Of a stretch of DNA of 64,000 nt, positions 1 through 7,761 are shown piece after piece. The stretch spans positions 1 through 64,000 of the IMG/VR virus record IMGVR_UViG_3300017917_003446; one strand, written 5' to 3'. Numbering within the stretch: position 1 is the stretch's first letter; each line of letters begins with the position of its first letter. The notes beneath the pieces were generated by a model. The model was not told where the DNA came from, did not search any database, and saw only the letters and a list, made by a program, of their open reading frames with translations. Both the position numbers and the translations under genes were made by a program. The DNA comes from a virus.

Positions 1-66
1 AGTATATTGCACTTCACTGATAAGGAAGACTGGTCGGCTGTATTCAACTGGCTAGTGCAGTATACT
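1..66 (+). repeat. Inverted repeat (13-bp arms) just upstream of tmRNA
   Basis: Bases 1-13 and 54-66 are reverse complements except for one G-U pair, with a 40-nt loop. The right arm contains TATACT (61-66), which fits a sigma70 -10 box seven bases before the predicted tmRNA 5' end at 73. No good -35 box lies 16-18 bases further upstream. The arms could be a stem in the upstream mRNA, a processing signal or an operator. The left arm touches the window edge, so the stem may be longer than seen. Confidence 0.5.
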
Positions 67-132
67 TCTGATGGGCCAGACATGGTTTCGACGGGGCAAA
101 TAGTAAGTAAGTGGACAACTCGGCAATGCTAA
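1..132 (+). CDS. Partial ORF, C-terminal end of an upstream gene (uncertain)
   Basis: Frame 1 is open from the window edge to TAA at 130-132 and encodes about 43 residues. The first 28 look protein-like (several Trp, Asp and Phe). The last part is the translation of sequence that also forms the 5' half of the tmRNA. If real, the gene ends inside the tmRNA gene, so either the tmRNA was inserted at the gene's 3' end or the tail is non-functional read-through. No family could be assigned; the fragment is too short. The start lies outside the window. Confidence 0.35.
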   Translation, partial: SILHFTDKEDWSAVFNWLVQYTSDGPDMVSTGQIVSKWTTRQC

Positions 133-270
133 AGCCGTAGGGTTAGGACTACCTGGCCGAAGAAGCAACGCAAATAGACGCAAACGACGACTATTTTTAT
201 CAGGACCTTAAGCTAGCCGCTTAAACCTGACGGGGTTTTGGCAGTTCACCTTGTTACCAAACGAACTGCC
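73..270 (+). ncRNA. ssrA: tmRNA (SsrA) coding domain, phage-encoded
   Basis: tmRNA rescues stalled ribosomes and tags the nascent peptide for proteolysis. The 5' end has the tmRNA layout: a 7-nt acceptor strand GGGCCAG (73-79) followed by GGTTTCGACGGGG. The resume region AATAGACGCAAACGACGA is nearly identical to the E. coli sequence. The tag frame runs from GCA at 180 to TAA at 222-224 and encodes ANDDYFYQDLKLAA, ending in the typical LAA. TCAGG (200-204) and CCTGA (226-230) plus TTAAGC (208-213) and GCTTAA (219-224) form a helix around the stop codon. A pseudoknot follows: TTTGG 237-241 with CCAAA 257-261, and CAGTTC 242-247 with GAACTG 263-268. No T-arm or 3' acceptor strand with CCA was found before the next gene, so this resembles the coding piece of a permuted two-piece tmRNA. 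Identity as tmRNA is firm; completeness is not. Confidence 0.88.
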
Positions 271-290
271 TCACACACAAAGGAGATTTA

Positions 291-839
291 ATGAAAAAGA
301 CAATTTTAGCTCTCGCTTTAGCAACTGCTGCATCAGTATCACAAGCAGCCAATTATGTAAGTTTTGATGTAGATCAAGTTACTGATACTCGCCAAAAAGG
401 TCGCCCTGAAAGTACAGCACAGTATTTCCGTGCAGGAAAAGATATGGTAGGTCTAAACTGGGATATGCAAGTACGTACAGCAGTTTTTGATAAAGGCGGA
501 ATGCTTAATAGTGTCGAAGTTACTGCAGGTAAAAATATCGCCGGTGTAAATGCTTTTGGTGGAGTAGGTTACGACAATGGATTCAATGGTAAAGTCAACG
601 GTGATTTTACTTACGGTTTAGTTGGTCTTAAGGCGGGCGCACCTATTGGTCCACTATATGCTTTTACTGGTGTAAAGACTCGTGTTAATTGGGATAATGA
701 TAATCCTAAACAAACAGTAACATGGCTTGGAGCAAGTATGCCCCTTACGAAAACAGTAAGCGTAAGTGGTAGTGTAAGCCGTTCACTACAGACAATTGAA
801 GAAAAAGCAGTTGGCGTAGGTTTAAGAATCGCATATTAA
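291..839 (+). CDS. Exported outer-membrane beta-barrel-like protein
   Basis: The 182-residue product starts with a clear Sec signal peptide (MKK, hydrophobic core, likely cleavage after SQA at residue 19). The mature part has no further hydrophobic helix. It is built of short alternating polar/non-polar strands rich in Gly, Val, Asn and aromatics, and it ends in a terminal Tyr after VGVGLRIA, the kind of C-terminal strand read by the BAM complex. I infer a small outer-membrane barrel placed in the host envelope, possibly for superinfection exclusion or permeability. It has a strong AAGGAG ribosome site at 280-285 and lies directly after the tmRNA. The family is not recognised; a periplasmic beta protein is the alternative. 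Confidence 0.75.
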   Translation: MKKTILALALATAASVSQAANYVSFDVDQVTDTRQKGRPESTAQYFRAGKDMVGLNWDMQVRTAVFDKGGMLNSVEVTAGKNIAGVNAFGGVGYDNGFNGKVNGDFTYGLVGLKAGAPIGPLYAFTGVKTRVNWDNDNPKQTVTWLGASMPLTKTVSVSGSVSRSLQTIEEKAVGVGLRIAY

Positions 840-843
840 AACT

Positions 844-871
844 AAGGTTCGGTGGAACCTTATAATCCACC
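844..871 (+). promoter_or_regulatory. H-type RNA pseudoknot in leader of the 903 gene
   Basis: AAGGTT (844-849) pairs with AACCTT (856-861), and the loop GGTGG (851-855) is complementary to CCACC (867-871), giving a compact H-type pseudoknot between the 291 gene and the AAGGAG ribosome site of the next gene. Without the second stem it is an 8-bp hairpin (843-850/855-862) with loop GGTG. There is no U-run directly after the stem, so it is not a standard terminator. A translational operator or mRNA-stabilising element is possible. Confidence 0.55.
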
Positions 872-902
872 ATTTTTACACACAAACACAAGGAGAATTA
901 AA

Positions 903-1172
903 ATGTCAAATATGACACCTTTTGAAATTAGACTTGAGCTACTAAAAATGGCTCAGACAATGCTTGAACAAGATTATTATGGTAAACGTGAATCTATTAG
1001 CAATGATTGGCAAGTCAAAGTAGATAATGCCAGACATGCTGGTCAACTTCCTCCAGATCATCCTGGATTCCCACCTTACCCTACAGAAGCAGATATTATT
1101 TCCAAAGCAAATACGCTTAATGGTTTTGTATCTCAACTTCCACAGGCCTTAGAAAAAACTTCTAAGAAATAA
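903..1172 (+). CDS. Conserved hypothetical protein of T4-like marine phages
   Basis: The 89-residue protein begins MSNMTPFEIRLELLKMAQ and has no signal peptide, membrane segment or Cys motif. The N-terminal half is predicted helical; the middle is Pro-rich (PPDHPGFPPYP). I have seen this TPFEIRLxLLxMA pattern in T4-like cyanophage genomes near replication and late-transcription genes, but no function is known to me. The start at 903 is favoured over the in-frame ATG at 852 because AAGGAG lies at 890-895 and the upstream start would include the pseudoknot. Confidence 0.8.
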   Translation: MSNMTPFEIRLELLKMAQTMLEQDYYGKRESISNDWQVKVDNARHAGQLPPDHPGFPPYPTEADIISKANTLNGFVSQLPQALEKTSKK

Positions 1173-1177
1173 TTTAC

Positions 1178-1192
1178 GGGGGCTCTGCCCCC
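1178..1192 (+). repeat. GC-rich hairpin between genes
   Basis: GGGGGC (1178-1183), loop TCT, GCCCCC (1187-1192), followed by only two T residues. It is too U-poor to be a convincing terminator. It sits directly upstream of the TAGGA ribosome site of the SleB gene and could tune its translation or block exonucleases. Confidence 0.5.
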
Positions 1193-1204
1193 TTAGGAAT
1201 ATAA

Positions 1205-1738
1205 ATGGACAAGTTACTAAAGATTTTCTTAGTATGCTTTGCTGCAGTTATATTAGGTAATTTTTTCAATAAGTTTGTTGAATATAAACTTGAATCATTA
1301 AAGAATAATGCTAAAGTTCAAACCAAATATACTACAATGGCAGAACGTGAAAAACAACTTGAATGCTTGGCTTATAACATTTACTATGAAGCAGCTAAAG
1401 AATCGTTTGAAGGTAAAGTAGCAGTAGCGCAAGTCACTTTAAATAGAGCAGCATCTGGATTATTTCCAAGTGACGTTTGTAAGGTAGTTTATCAAAAGAA
1501 TGTTTTTATGGAGAAAGTGGTATGCCAATTTAGTTGGTATTGTGAAGCGGTAACTAGAAAAAAACCTTTACATCAAGAAGCATTTGATGAATGCTACGGT
1601 GTAGCTAAAAAGGTTCTTCTTGAGGGTTTTAGATTAGAATCACTTGAAGAGGCAATGTATTATCATGCAAACTATGTTAATCCGAAATGGAATAAACAAA
1701 AGATCGCAACTATCGGCAACCACATCTTCTACAAGTAA
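1205..1738 (+). CDS. SleB/CwlJ-type cell wall hydrolase with N-terminal membrane anchor
   Basis: The 177-residue protein has a hydrophobic segment (about residues 6-22) that can act as a signal anchor, then a Hydrolase_2 (SleB) domain. Visible family signatures are CLAYNIYYEA with the presumed catalytic Glu at 62, VAVAQVTLNR (72-81), YHANYVNPKW (153-162) and GNHIF near the C-terminus. SleB-type enzymes cleave peptidoglycan glycan strands. In a phage with a Gram-negative host this is the best endolysin candidate, exported by its anchor rather than through a holin pore alone. It sits one base upstream of a small 3-TM protein, which supports a lysis cassette. Confidence 0.85.
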   Translation: MDKLLKIFLVCFAAVILGNFFNKFVEYKLESLKNNAKVQTKYTTMAEREKQLECLAYNIYYEAAKESFEGKVAVAQVTLNRAASGLFPSDVCKVVYQKNVFMEKVVCQFSWYCEAVTRKKPLHQEAFDECYGVAKKVLLEGFRLESLEEAMYYHANYVNPKWNKQKIATIGNHIFYK

Positions 1739-1739
1739 A

Positions 1740-2087
1740 ATGAAAAACTTAATAGGCAAACTAAAAGAATCAAGTTCTAATATCACTTTATTCGACTTAC
1801 AAAAGGTGATACAATTTTTTAGAACTCACGTAACAGCTGCAACTGCAGAAACAATTACTTGGGTAGCAATAATTTTAATTCATGCATCTATTGTTCCTAC
1901 AATGATTGCATTGATGGCGGGATTGTCTGATAAGACGCCCCCTATTGATTTGGTGTTGTTTATTTGGGGAGGATTATCTTTATTGTTTATTCGTGCGGCA
2001 ATTTTAAAGGATATGCTTAACGTGATTACTATTGGATGTGGATTTTTAGCACATGCTATTATGCTAGCTTTGGTATTATTTAAATGA
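1740..2087 (+). CDS. Small 3-TM membrane protein, holin candidate
   Basis: The 115-residue product has three predicted membrane helices (about 38-61, 68-88, 92-114) after a polar N-terminus with FDLQKVIQFFRTH. The ATG at 1740 follows the hydrolase stop by one base; an upstream in-frame start at 1644 would overlap the hydrolase by almost 100 bases and is less likely. Size, topology and position next to the wall hydrolase suggest a holin or lysis regulator, but no family motif is visible. A second holin-like protein is encoded at 6289-6861, so the assignment is open. Confidence 0.6.
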   Translation: MKNLIGKLKESSSNITLFDLQKVIQFFRTHVTAATAETITWVAIILIHASIVPTMIALMAGLSDKTPPIDLVLFIWGGLSLLFIRAAILKDMLNVITIGCGFLAHAIMLALVLFK

Positions 2088-2347
2088 TAGAAGAATTTAA
2101 TAAATTAACTGATGGCATCATAATAACTAAGAGATTTAGATCAGCGAATGAGTTTTCTTTACACATAGAAGAAAAGGTAGCTAAAGAGAGAATCGGTTAT
2201 ATGGATGCTATTATAGATTATTGTAATACTATTGACATTGATGTTTCTTCAGTTGCTTCTTTAGTAAATCAGTCTCTAAAAGACAAAATTCAAATAGAAG
2301 CGGAAGAAGCTAATTTATTAAAACGAAGGGGTAAATTACCTATATGA
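2084..2347 (+). CDS. 33: Late promoter transcription accessory protein gp33
   Basis: The 87-residue protein matches the gp33 coactivator of T4-like phages: SLHIEEKVAKERIGYMDAIIDYC, then SLKDKIQIEAEEANLLKRRGKLPI. In T4, gp33 binds the beta flap of host RNA polymerase and links it to the sliding clamp so that TATAAATA late promoters fire. Late promoters of this type are present elsewhere in the window, which fits. It overlaps the upstream membrane gene by four bases and gp59 by four bases (ATGA), so it is translationally coupled. Confidence 0.85.
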   Translation: MIEEFNKLTDGIIITKRFRSANEFSLHIEEKVAKERIGYMDAIIDYCNTIDIDVSSVASLVNQSLKDKIQIEAEEANLLKRRGKLPI

Positions 2348-2970
2348 TTGTAATGGACGCATTTGAAGTTTATAAGTATTACTTGGCATTGAAGTTACAT
2401 TTTACAACAGACAAATATGATGTTATTGAACAGAAAGGAAAAGTTAGAGCAACAAGACAGGCATTTTCAAAAAGAAAAGATTTATATGCTATAAACAAAG
2501 TTGCCAAAACTTATACAGATGAAGAAGTCGCTAATTTTCTTATTGCTAATTTCGTTTCTGGAGATCGTTGGGGCGGTGTATTCGACACTGAAGCGAGAGA
2601 GACCTATATTCTATGGAAGAAAAGAGTAGAAGGATTGACTTATAACTTCACTCAAGATTTGGAAAAGCTTTTGGAAGAATTAGATGAAAGCAAAAAGCAG
2701 TTTGGAGATCTATTCAATTGTTCAAAAGGCGAACATCCATATATAATTAAGGCATATTTAAGAAAAAGCATAACAATAGAAACATTAGTAATTTTGGAGA
2801 AAATTTATGGATTGGTTAACAAATTTGACAGAGAAATTACTGACACTATTGTTTGGCCTGATATATCAAGACTTATTAAAAAGTATAGACCGTTCCTTGT
2901 AATAGATAAGGATAAATTTAATGAAATTATTAGACGACGAGTTGGATATGACGAGTCAAAGACTGACTAA
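2344..2970 (+). CDS. 59: Replicative helicase loader gp59
   Basis: The 208-residue protein has typical gp59 features near the N-terminus (FEVYKYYLALKLHFTTDKYD) and the motif NFVSGDRWGGVFDTEA (about 69-84). In T4, gp59 binds forked DNA coated by gp32 and loads the gp41 helicase. The protein is almost wholly helical and basic, as expected. ATG at 2344 overlaps the gp33 stop; the in-frame ATG at 2353 (MDAFEVYK) is an alternative start. Neighbouring gp32 at 3388 is its known partner. Confidence 0.88.
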   Translation: MIVMDAFEVYKYYLALKLHFTTDKYDVIEQKGKVRATRQAFSKRKDLYAINKVAKTYTDEEVANFLIANFVSGDRWGGVFDTEARETYILWKKRVEGLTYNFTQDLEKLLEELDESKKQFGDLFNCSKGEHPYIIKAYLRKSITIETLVILEKIYGLVNKFDREITDTIVWPDISRLIKKYRPFLVIDKDKFNEIIRRRVGYDESKTD

Positions 2971-3160
2971 CATAGAAACAGAGCTGATTCATATAAATGA
3001 ACAAATCAATGCTATGGTGGAAAGCCTAAATACGCAAATGGAATCAATAAAAGAAACACAAAGGTATTTGATAAAGCTTGCTAGAAATCAACAGGAACTA
3101 ACCAAAAGAATTTCAGCATGGCCATATATTGTGGTTAATAACAGAGACGAGGAAGTTTAA
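2921..3160 (+). CDS. Small coiled-coil protein between gp59 and gp32
   Basis: This 79-residue protein overlaps the end of gp59 by 50 bases in another frame. It is a continuous heptad-like helix (LTNIETELIHINEQINAMVESL) ending in LARNQQELTKRISAWPYIVV. The LAKNQQELTKRVxxWPY pattern recurs at this place in T4-like cyanophages; function unknown. AAGGA at 2908-2912 supports the 2921 start; ATG 2948 is the alternative with less overlap. Confidence 0.7.
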   Translation: MKLLDDELDMTSQRLTNIETELIHINEQINAMVESLNTQMESIKETQRYLIKLARNQQELTKRISAWPYIVVNNRDEEV

Positions 3161-3167
3161 AATTCAT

Positions 3168-3353
3168 ATGGGTGACACAAGACGTTTTGATGATTATGAT
3201 CGTGAAAAAAGATTACAAAAGATCAAATCTTCCAAAAATAAGCTAGACAAGCATCGAAAATTAATATATAATGTAGTATCATCGAGAAAAGATGATGCGG
3301 AATTTGATGATCTTCTTGAGTATGATACTTACACAAAAATCAAACGACGCTAA
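3168..3353 (+). CDS. Small basic hypothetical protein upstream of gp32
   Basis: The 61-residue, strongly charged, predicted helical protein begins MGDTRRFDDYDREKRLQK and contains SKNKLDKHRKLIYNVV. Similar short proteins occur between gp59 and gp32 in related phages. I chose ATG 3168 over the in-frame ATG at 3129 because the latter lies inside the previous gene. The function is unknown. Confidence 0.65.
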   Translation: MGDTRRFDDYDREKRLQKIKSSKNKLDKHRKLIYNVVSSRKDDAEFDDLLEYDTYTKIKRR

Positions 3354-3387: not shown

Positions 3388-4308
3388 ATGGCATTTACAT
3401 CTCTATCTGATCTTCGCAAATCTCGTGGTGGTTTTGATACACTTATGAAAGAGGTTGAGAAGATTTCCAATCCCCAATCTGAAGCAAAAGGCGATGATCG
3501 CTTTTGGGTTCCTGCGGTAGATAAGGCAGGCAACGGTTATGCGGTTATTCGTTTTCTTGCACCTCCTAAAGGTGAAGAACTTCCTTGGGTTCGTATTTGG
3601 TCTCATGGTTTTCAAGGTCCATCTGGTAAATGGTACATTGAAAATTCTTTGACGACCATTGGTCAACCTGACCCTGTTTCCGAGCTTAATACTAAACTAT
3701 GGAATAGTGGTAGTGAGGCAGACAAAGAAACAGCTCGTAAGCAAAAGCGCAAACTTAATTATATTACTAATATTCTAGTAATTAAGGATGCTGCAAATCC
3801 TGAGAATGAAGGTAAAGTTTTCTTATTTAGATTTGGTAAGAAAATTTTCGACAAGATTAAAGATGTTTCTCAACCACAATTCGAAGATGAGAAACCTATT
3901 AACCCATTTGACTTCTGGGAAGGAGCAAACTTCAAACTTAAGATTCGTAATGTTGAGGGTTATCGTAATTATGATAAATCTGAGTTTGATTCTCCTAGCC
4001 CAGTAGCAGATAACGATGATCGTATCGAGGCAATCTGGAATAAGCAATTCTCGCTTACAGAATTTCTTGATACTAAACACTTTAAGACATATGACTTCCT
4101 TAAGCAAAAATTGGAAGCAGTATTATCTGGTACTACAGCTGCAGCTGCACGTAGAGCTGAGGAAGTAGACTTAGAAGATAATGTGGTACATACACCTAAA
4201 GCGCAAGTTGTATCTAAACCTGTAGCTAAGGCACCACCTAAAGAAGTAGATTTTGATGACGATGAAGAATCGTTATCATACTTTGCCAAATTGGCAAATG
4301 AAGACTGA
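3388..4308 (+). CDS. 32: Single-stranded DNA-binding protein gp32
   Basis: The 306-residue protein has the gp32 layout: an N-terminal basic protein-interaction segment (FTSLSDLRKSRGGFDTLMKEVEK), an OB-fold core (DDRFWVPAVDKAGNGYAVIRFLAPP, WVRIWSHGFQGPSGKWYIENSLTT, NPFDFWEGANFKLKI) and an acidic C-terminal tail (DFDDDEES) that in T4 recruits gp59 and the polymerase. It coats ssDNA cooperatively. The zinc-ligand Cys residues of T4 gp32 are absent; the protein shows no Cys at all in this region, so it probably folds without zinc. The CGGAG at 3375-3379 is a good ribosome site. Confidence 0.93.
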   Translation: MAFTSLSDLRKSRGGFDTLMKEVEKISNPQSEAKGDDRFWVPAVDKAGNGYAVIRFLAPPKGEELPWVRIWSHGFQGPSGKWYIENSLTTIGQPDPVSELNTKLWNSGSEADKETARKQKRKLNYITNILVIKDAANPENEGKVFLFRFGKKIFDKIKDVSQPQFEDEKPINPFDFWEGANFKLKIRNVEGYRNYDKSEFDSPSPVADNDDRIEAIWNKQFSLTEFLDTKHFKTYDFLKQKLEAVLSGTTAAAARRAEEVDLEDNVVHTPKAQVVSKPVAKAPPKEVDFDDDEESLSYFAKLANED

Positions 4309-4319
4309 TAGCTAGTCCA

Positions 4320-4377
4320 AGCTGTATGCGAGTATCCGTCTGACTAATTCAGATCATGAATCGCTAAGGATGACGAC
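4320..4377 (+). ncRNA. Possible structured RNA between gp32 and the 4409 gene
   Basis: The 100-base gap after gp32 has no ORF. It contains a perfect hairpin, TCTGA (4339-4343), loop CTAAT, TCAGA (4349-4353), nested in GCGA (4328-4331)/TCGC (4361-4364). ATCC (4334-4337) can also pair with GGAT (4368-4371) to make a pseudoknot. No known riboswitch signature was recognised. It may be a leader element for the secreted peptide gene or the 3' end of gp32 mRNA. Pairing is by eye only. Confidence 0.35.
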
Positions 4378-4408
4378 CTATTTTTTAAAACTTTAAAAGG
4401 AAACTTTT

Positions 4409-4636
4409 ATGAAAACTTTAATTGCACTTTTCGCAGCACTTGGTCTTGTTACTGGAGTTTATGCAGCTGACGCTAAGAAAGAGGAGCCAAAGAAGGATGC
4501 TCCAAAGGCAGAAGCAAAGAAAGAAGAACCCGTTAAGCCAAAGGTTAAGCCTGTTGGTAAAGACGGTAAGCCAGTAGAAGAAAAGAAAGAGGAGCCAAAG
4601 AAGGATGCTCCTAAACCTGATCCTGCTAAGAAGTAA
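4409..4636 (+). CDS. Secreted Lys/Glu/Pro-rich low-complexity protein
   Basis: The 75-residue product has a signal peptide (MKTLIALFAALGLVTGVYA, cleavage after residue 19). Its mature part is almost only K, E, P, A and D, with a repeated KKEEPKKDAPK-type block near both ends and a central VKPKVKPVGKDGKPV. It should be disordered in the periplasm. There is a strong AAGGAAA ribosome site. Function unknown; such proteins may bind the envelope or protect the wall. It ends at the bidirectional terminator. Confidence 0.75.
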   Translation: MKTLIALFAALGLVTGVYAADAKKEEPKKDAPKAEAKKEEPVKPKVKPVGKDGKPVEEKKEEPKKDAPKPDPAKK

Positions 4637-6288: not shown

Positions 6289-6861
6289 TTATACTGGTCT
6301 TCTTACTATTGGTCTAATGGATGTTCCGTCACTTGGAGGTGCATCCATTATTGGTTGGGACAAAGGTACACTTGGATTAGGATCAGCATATGCCATTGGT
6401 TGTGATACTGGCATAGGTGCTGCTGTTATTGCTTGTGGTCTTGGCGCACTAAGTGTTGTACCTGGTGCTGGGGGCGGAGGAGCAGAACTTAGTGTGGGAG
6501 TTGGAACATTACCTGCTGCACCTGCTATCTTTTCCTGTGTGCGACCAAATGCACTGACACCAAGAACAGCTCCCATAGCTACGTGAAACAATCCACCGCC
6601 TTGAAGCGTAATAGGTACCCACTGTCTAAACGCATCATTGACTGCTTGCTCTTCCCAGAACTGAACAATAGTAAACATAATAGGAAAAATAGCAAAGTCT
6701 GCTAAACAGCAAACCATATACATCATTGCCATCATTGGACGCCATTTTTTGGTCATCCAATCTTCCTTGTTTTCATTACCGGGCACTAAAGCCGAATCTT
6801 CTTCTTTTTTCTCTTCCACTTTAGGTTCCTCTTTTTTCTTTGTACCAAATTGAAATCCCAT
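6289..6861 (-). CDS. Holin-like (3TM gene-transfer-release type) membrane protein
   Basis: The 190-residue protein has a charged N-terminus, hydrophobic segments at about 42-68 and 88-105, and the block QWVPITLQGGGLFHVAMGAVLGVSAFGRTQEK. WRPMM and the TLQGGGLxHxAMGAxLG block resemble the holin family first described in gene-transfer agents. The C-terminal 75 residues are Pro/Ala-rich and disordered. It lies between gp26 and the tape-measure candidate, so a structural role in the tail (for example DNA-ejection pore) is also possible. Ribosome site AAAGGA precedes the start. Confidence 0.6.
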   Translation of the reverse strand: MGFQFGTKKKEEPKVEEKKEEDSALVPGNENKEDWMTKKWRPMMAMMYMVCCLADFAIFPIMFTIVQFWEEQAVNDAFRQWVPITLQGGGLFHVAMGAVLGVSAFGRTQEKIAGAAGNVPTPTLSSAPPPPAPGTTLSAPRPQAITAAPMPVSQPMAYADPNPSVPLSQPIMDAPPSDGTSIRPIVRRPV

Positions 6862-6871
6862 TTCAGTTCCT

Positions 6872-7030
6872 TTACATGAATTCTCTATTTTTATTTTGCA
6901 TTCTTATTTTTTCGTTTTCCTCATGTATATACTGTATTAGTAGTGCTATGTAAGTATCTCTTTCCCAGGGTAGCATATCCTCTAATTCTGATAATGAATA
7001 TTTGTGATGATGCATTAAGGCAAAATTCAT
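6872..7030 (-). CDS. gp26 frameshift extension / tail assembly chaperone domain
   Basis: This 52-residue ORF is MNFALMHHHKYSLSELEDML then PWERDTYIALLIQYIHEENE and a charged end. The same frame stays open upstream of the ATG (RLSLSQDDLLNYYK) back to the slippery site inside gp26, so the natural product is probably a gp26 fusion made by -1 frameshifting rather than a separate protein. The sequence has the look of the T domain of tail-assembly chaperones (gpG-GT type): short, helical, with a YSLSELExMxPWERxxY core. It ends 10 bases before the holin-like gene. Confidence 0.8.
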   Translation of the reverse strand: MNFALMHHHKYSLSELEDMLPWERDTYIALLIQYIHEENEKIRMQNKNREFM

Positions 7031-7065
7031 TTTGTAATAATTTAGTAAATCATCCTGAGAAAGAC

Positions 7066-7761
7066 TTAAACGAAAAAACTTTGAAGGCCCTCCAGTTTTA
7101 CTACATTATGTTTTCCACACTTATCGCAATCTGCTTCAATAGTTTGTTCTAATCTTGGCATAGTAAGAAAAAATTCTTCTACTTTTTCAAATTGTTTTCT
7201 GGTGAAATCATTGACAAACTGCAGAATTTCTTCTTGCGTTTGCTCTGACGAATCCCAATAATTTTTATTATCATAAACACCTTTTATACAATTTATAACC
7301 AATTTTACAATATCATCCTGATCATCATTTTCATATGCTTTCATTACTTCTTCATAGGTAGGGTATCTCATTTCAACGCCTATAGAATCAGTCAATTGTA
7401 TTTTACTATTATGATTTTCTCGTTTTACTACTTTAGCATCTAATAAATTAGCAGTGTGTTCTATTTTATTCCCGCACTCACAGTTAATAATTAAATCTAA
7501 AGTTTCACCTATTGATTTTGCTCTTAACTGTATGAAAATATATTCAATATCAAAATTGGATAAATCTTCAACCTTTAGTTTTTCAAATGTACAAATATTT
7601 ACTAAATCTTTTATTACTCGAAATACCTCTATTTCATTGGCTTCTTTTAAAGTTAAAAGAATTTTATGTTCTTTTACTAGAAAAGGTCTGTATTTAACAG
7701 TTTTCCCAGTAGAAGGAAGTTTTAATTCATAGGTTGGTGTATTTAATTTTGGTAAAGCCAT
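7066..7761 (-). CDS. 26: Baseplate hub subunit / tail assembly chaperone gp26
   Basis: The 231-residue protein matches T4-like gp26: YELKLPSTGKTVKYRPFLVKEHKILL at the N-terminus and, later, RYPTYEEVMKAYE. Two Cys pairs (CECG and CDKCG) could bind zinc. In T4, gp26 is needed for hub assembly. The -1 slippery site near its 3' end would convert a minority of product into a about 296-residue fusion, as in the G/GT tail chaperones of lambdoid phages. It starts 12 bases after the gp54 stop. Confidence 0.82.
   Translation of the reverse strand: MALPKLNTPTYELKLPSTGKTVKYRPFLVKEHKILLTLKEANEIEVFRVIKDLVNICTFEKLKVEDLSNFDIEYIFIQLRAKSIGETLDLIINCECGNKIEHTANLLDAKVVKRENHNSKIQLTDSIGVEMRYPTYEEVMKAYENDDQDDIVKLVINCIKGVYDNKNYWDSSEQTQEEILQFVNDFTRKQFEKVEEFFLTMPRLEQTIEADCDKCGKHNVVKLEGLQSFFV
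7072..7093 (-). promoter_or_regulatory. Programmed -1 frameshift signal
   Basis: Reading the minus strand, an internal Shine-Dalgarno GGAGGG (7093-7088) is followed after nine bases by the slippery heptamer T TTT TTC (7078-7072) in the gp26 frame, two codons before the gp26 stop. This copies the E. coli dnaX arrangement, where an SD about 10 bases upstream stimulates -1 slippage. Slipping gives the in-frame 66-residue extension. No strong downstream stem was seen. Confidence 0.72.

Follow-up and report, generated by a model that had tools for sequence, protein, structure and literature searches.

The stretch of DNA analysed here, called the window, is the first 64,000 bases of a 115,472-base virus contig, window base 1 being contig base 1. 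The contig is T4-like in its portal, terminase, sheath, baseplate and gp59 genes, the portal being ~54% identical to cyanophage and pelagiphage portals, which supports the preliminary description of the RNA gene at its start as phage-encoded. A circularly permuted tmRNA gene is cut by the contig start, which falls two bases into its intervening segment (IVS; Table 1), and the coding half of the tmRNA extends from position 73 to ~272 on the plus strand, the 3' end being approximate. The coding half proposed earlier for positions 73-270 is thus borne out, with GGGCCAG, the D-loop signature, the resume codon, the tag frame and the terminal hairpin in place. For the product of the gene at 291..839, Pfam and PHROG returned no match.

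Table 1. Features at the start of the window.
Feature	Position	Strand	Remarks
IVS of the permuted tmRNA gene, without its first two bases (GA)	1..72	+	three-way-junction fold
IVS fold	P1 1-10/57-68; P2 12-15/25-28; P3 29-37/48-56; tail TGAT 69-72		
5' acceptor-stem strand GGGCCAG	73..79	+	holds G3 of G3.U70; partner CTGGTCC off the contig, seen in L037 and other relatives
tmRNA D-loop signature GGTTTCGAC	84..92	+	sequence; Rfam alignment
Resume codon GCA	180-182	+	
Tag reading frame ANDDYFYQDLKLAA-stop (TAA)	180..224	+	
Terminal hairpin of coding half (GGCAGTTC/GAACTGCC)	240..270, arms 240-247/263-270	+	sequence, MFE fold, beta_tmRNA alignment
Downstream phage gene, 182 aa	291..839	+	signal-peptide-like start; directly after the tmRNA in relatives too, conserved

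In a covariance-model search, which the preliminary description had proposed, the window fragment matched tmRNA_permuted (RF04321) with 45.2 bits (E 4.5e-7) and beta_tmRNA with 15 bits, and both matches were flagged as cut at the 5' side. The first score lies below the RF04321 gathering score of 47 bits because the gene is cut; the complete gene of the relative contig L037 reaches 109.9 bits. ARAGORN and an Rfam scan at gathering thresholds called no tmRNA in the window, as expected of a truncated gene whose acceptor half lies outside the contig. The resume region and a tag frame with a hydrophobic -LAA end, as expected of RF04321 members, are present, the frame being ANDDYFYQDLKLAA at positions 180-224.

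A permuted tmRNA gene has its acceptor half upstream of the coding half. Because the gene type places it there and the contig starts at window base 1, no acceptor half is visible, and the earlier observation to this effect holds for the whole contig: a pattern scan of all 115 kb found no T-loop with a complementary acceptor strand, and in the last 20 kb Rfam detected nothing but a tRNA-Met. An acceptor half elsewhere on the contig was rejected on these two results, and circular closure of the contig was rejected as well, as its two ends share no overlap and the distal one falls within a repetitive gene. With the window as the query, a DNA search of phages gave no match; relatives were collected via the resume sequence and via the downstream protein. 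The closest colinear relative with upstream sequence is L037/L032, with 84% identity over window positions 1-2087. Upstream, L037 has a T-arm and the acceptor strand CTGGTCC, followed by ACCA; the 74-base IVS of the window type and the coding half with GGGCCAG come next, the letters before the base equivalent to window base 1 being TGCGGACGCGGGTTCGACTCCCGCCTGGTCCACCA-GA (...TGCTGCGGACGCGGGTTCGACTCCCGCCTGGTCCACCA, then GA). The strand complementary to GGGCCAG and followed by CCA, for which a search had been suggested, is present in L037; on the window's own contig the pattern scan found none next to a T-loop. On L037, ARAGORN calls a permuted tmRNA with a tag identical to that of the window. 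AhpC-like and AhpD/CMD-like genes precede the tmRNA in L037, and together with a heme oxygenase gene they lie around it at 3548-4632 and 6794-7348.

In the relatives that extend upstream, the acceptor half lies 31-279 bases ahead of the coding half and pairs with it in 7/7 positions, which supports the first of two alternatives put forward in the preliminary description, namely an acceptor piece upstream of the window in a permuted gene. More contigs end within the same gene: L006/L010 break off at the resume region, and L031/L049 and L035/L038 do so where the coding half has its 5' end. These ends fit an assembly break, which may be due to a segment nearly unchanged among co-occurring phages. 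We conclude that this T4-like phage very probably encodes a complete two-piece tmRNA in circularly permuted order, of which the window contains the IVS and the coding half; the acceptor half would lie within a few dozen bases upstream of contig base 1, where a T-arm and CTGGTCCACCA would be expected. Judging from the relatives, the acceptor half of this phage should be intact. The puzzle of a “half tmRNA” can be settled in this way with nothing exotic required, the missing half sitting, in all likelihood, just past the contig end.

The two halves were compared across 62 distinct permuted genes with both halves visible, gathered by a script that demanded at least 6/7 acceptor-stem pairs. The acceptor stem occurs in 10 sequence combinations (for example GGGCCAG/CTGGTCC, GGGGATG/CATCTCC and GGGGTGG/CCACTCC), all of them paired 7/7, a result that is partly selected because of the script's threshold; the compensatory changes at stem positions 4, 5 and 6 are not selected. 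The pair G3.U70, the alanine identity element, is kept in 62/62 genes, and the window carries the corresponding strand GGGCCAG. In genes missed by the script an acceptor-like half was still present, as seen by inspection or with ARAGORN, some with CC+G or CC+T for CCA or with an altered T-loop. In L009, L015, L027, L137 and L145 the T-loop of the acceptor half reads GGCAGTA or GGCAGTG instead of TTCGANN, and the D-loop of the coding half is altered too (AGTTTCGAC or GGATCGATTG), possibly a coordinated change of the T-loop/D-loop contact. L005/L034 carry the tag of the window, yet only ~8 bases without CCA separate the acceptor strand CATCTCC from GGGGATG, so that almost no IVS is left, and their D-loop is altered; these genes look decayed or differently matured. 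A further arrangement is seen in L073 (positions 1803-3330; a MAG contig of UBP17 bacterium UBA6191), where a one-piece tmRNA and a permuted acceptor-IVS-coding arrangement with the tag ANDDTYLLAANA share one acceptor half, followed by a stretch resembling a reverse-strand ORF and by a remnant of a tmRNA 3' part. This layout could stem from integration of a phage, from a tandem intermediate on the way to permutation or from chimeric assembly via the shared acceptor; no beta-type host tmRNA was found in L073 or its phylum.

The tag ANDDYFYQDLKLAA has 14 residues, compared to 10 in most phage relatives (for example ANDERFALAA, ANDEKFALAA and ANDEVFALAA) and in the Rfam beta consensus, and its extra length sits between AND and LAA. 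Other long tags, such as ANDSAYYQDLRLAA and ANDAYFGDVRLAA, occur among related phages. The amino acid sequence is identical in 15 of the 16 distinct coding halves of the lineage, which differ within the frame by synonymous changes at tag codons 6, 9, 10 and 13 and by the choice of stop codon; the sole coding half with amino-acid changes is that of L044, which reads ANNDYFYQDLKLVA. A degenerate scan of bacteria and archaea (84,980 species, one genome each) found no match to ANDDYFYQDLKLAA. The comparison with host tags consists of the Rfam consensus and this negative scan. Conservation under synonymous change and the lack of a match in 84,980 species genomes strengthen the earlier suggestion of a custom tag.

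Following established knowledge of permuted tmRNAs, a single precursor would be transcribed, and the IVS between the acceptor CCA and G73 would be excised by tRNA-processing enzymes, leaving two pieces held together by the acceptor stem and other helices. Charging by the host alanyl-tRNA synthetase would proceed through G3.U70. SmpB was found neither on the contig nor on 12 relative contigs, all of them possibly incomplete, and host SmpB would thus be needed. With it, the RNA would enter stalled ribosomes and A-ANDDYFYQDLKLAA would be appended to the nascent chain. The C-terminal LAA should remain readable by ClpXP-type proteases, separated from the N-terminal AND part by four more residues than in the 10-residue tags. 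The most likely function is phage-run trans-translation with a customised, longer tag and host SmpB.

Could the four extra residues be tuned to the proteolysis of the host? They might let the SspB adaptor and ClpX bind together, giving faster turnover during infection, or shift tagged proteins to another protease. The unusual length of the tag speaks for such a role, as do engineered tags with four inserted residues between the SspB and ClpX sites, which are degraded rapidly with SspB (PMC8138137); however, beyond AND the N-terminal part shows no conservation with the known SspB site, and we regard this refinement as possible but doubtful. The phage copy might also chiefly compete with host tmRNA for SmpB rather than tag proteins, in the manner of the CDS-less tmRNA-like RNA of phage DS6A that was reported to inhibit endogenous tmRNA (PMC11915505, PMC4131195). 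Conservation of the tag frame would then be needless, making competition an unlikely main role. It is very improbable that the locus is a decayed or captured host ssrA fragment without function, for example from imprecise prophage excision: prophages often integrate at ssrA and are known to carry fragments of it (PMC9004378), but the tag is conserved under synonymous change, the halves show compensatory pairing, the alanine identity pair is universal among the 62 genes, the gene set is that of a lytic T4-like phage, and the same tag occurs in many phages while it was not found in host genomes. The second alternative of the preliminary description, a phage supplying the coding half only and pairing it with a host acceptor RNA, is in keeping with a 115-kb contig devoid of an acceptor half but found no support and is scarcely credible, since each examined relative that extends upstream has an adjacent acceptor-like half, the strands co-vary within each phage, and the closest relative has its acceptor half directly upstream of the equivalent of window base 1.

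The IVS of a tmRNA is usually regarded as waste. The complete IVS of the window type is 74 bases long in the relatives and 100% identical in many of them. Across ten distinct copies, 96.9% of cells are paired in the three-way-junction structure, and in the outer stem P1 9 of 12 pairs change on both sides. There are 29 double-change cells, compared to a shuffle mean of 9.5 and at most 6 in slid structures; this covariation supports mainly P1, because P2 and P3 hardly vary and the search pattern fixed P2. Copies of the IVS core also stand apart from tmRNA genes, next to tRNA genes or tRNA-like sequence (L136, L140 and L141), and in L154/L155 the core is found just downstream of a permuted tmRNA, ahead of a tRNA-Thr. 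The outer stems of all these cores are different yet complementary. No Rfam family was found for the core at E up to 2 (L136 and L140), and it is a candidate for an undescribed phage RNA element. The IVS is uncoupled from the backbone: that of the window is 100% identical to that of L134 at 70% identity of the coding halves, and L017 combines a coding half 94% identical to that of the window with an unrelated IVS. A small protein gene in the window IVS (TTG start, HFTDKEDWSAVFNWLVQY...) was rejected. The RNA reading is preferred because neither ATG nor GTG occurs as an in-frame start in the part read of the copy beside tRNA genes, and because the outer stem covaries.

Other IVSs may carry genes. 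Among 14 distinct IVSs of at least 100 bases, 6 have an ATG ORF that starts at position 11-14 and covers at least 80% of the IVS, a span rule picked after looking at the data; dinucleotide shuffles gave a mean of 0.55 and a maximum of 4 such ORFs, and 0 of 2000 shuffles reached 6. Their peptides have no convincing family match. Small ORFs were noted in the IVSs of L011, L055, L100, L103, L105 and L123, and also of L012, L080 and L085; several, such as MTEEEINKRNFRINVIIISLVYIVGLTVNIVFL, are membrane-like, and for some a Shine-Dalgarno-like start falls within the outer stem. Another IVS domain, CCGTAGAATACCGAAAGGTCGGCT, is present in the tmRNA IVSs of L033, L036, L075, L095, L174 and L176; a single copy, at L175 3909 when read on the minus strand, sits in a different stem and belongs to no tmRNA. 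The IVS of L097 has two IVS-like hairpins in tandem with GGTGGTGCTCCACCA between them, as if one IVS had been inserted beside another. On balance, we slightly favor the view that the IVS slot of these phages is an exchangeable cargo site within a covarying outer stem, occupied by a structured RNA that is complete in itself or by a small gene that has a start and a stop of its own. If so, one precursor would yield the rescue RNA and an independent RNA or mRNA, and the IVS would be a conserved, movable RNA or coding cassette. No ORFs or RNA elements in tmRNA IVSs were found in the openly accessible literature, which is weak evidence of absence. Phages that carry permuted tmRNAs with their own tags also represent a natural library of degradation-tag variants, one of them four residues longer than usual, and this library makes the redirection of host protein turnover by phages testable.

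In 18,146 phage genomes, 53 two-piece tmRNAs have been counted, predominantly aquatic ones (PMC9004378), and a list of unique tmRNAs from bacteriophages has 79 entries (PMC11915505). Methylophage Melnitz and the pelagimyophages likewise combine a permuted ssrA with a T4-like aquatic myophage genome (PMC9004378). However, the ssrA of Melnitz clusters with Alphaproteobacteria and carries a glutamine riboswitch, whereas the window gene resembles the betaproteobacterial type and has another tag and a structured IVS. The betaproteobacterial two-piece tmRNA (RF01850) and the merged tmRNA_permuted family (RF04321, PMC11915505) share with it the acceptor-IVS-coding order predicted for it, GGTTTCGAC, the resume region and a CCTTGTTACC loop near the 3' end, and the window gene differs from their consensus in its 14-residue tag, with a 12-base insertion. 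L037 scores 63.9 bits against RF01850, below the gathering score of 84, and the subtype is therefore not pinned; other relatives reach the gathering score (L062 118.3, L047 115.2 and L036 105.1 bits). Beta-type permuted tmRNA genes are also found in isolated phages (L167-L173), among them Stenotrophomonas phages Marzo and DLP_6, Pseudomonas phage PaMx31, Xanthomonas phage Rb1 and BUCT-ZZ01. They have the gene order predicted for the window gene and match RF04321, in many cases RF01850 as well. Their tags are distinct, VAANDDSYTVRIAA (as called) and ANDDNFRPALRLAA being examples, and their IVSs differ from that of the window. Most are not annotated in GenBank; among the five named phages a tmRNA is annotated only in Marzo. 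The engineered DAS+4 ssrA tag (PMC8138137) resembles ANDDYFYQDLKLAA in that four added residues separate its N-terminal adaptor part from the C-terminal ClpX part, and the window tag differs in being natural and in keeping LAA rather than DAS. Two-piece tmRNAs of phages are already published; what is new here is the tag ANDDYFYQDLKLAA and the IVS element.
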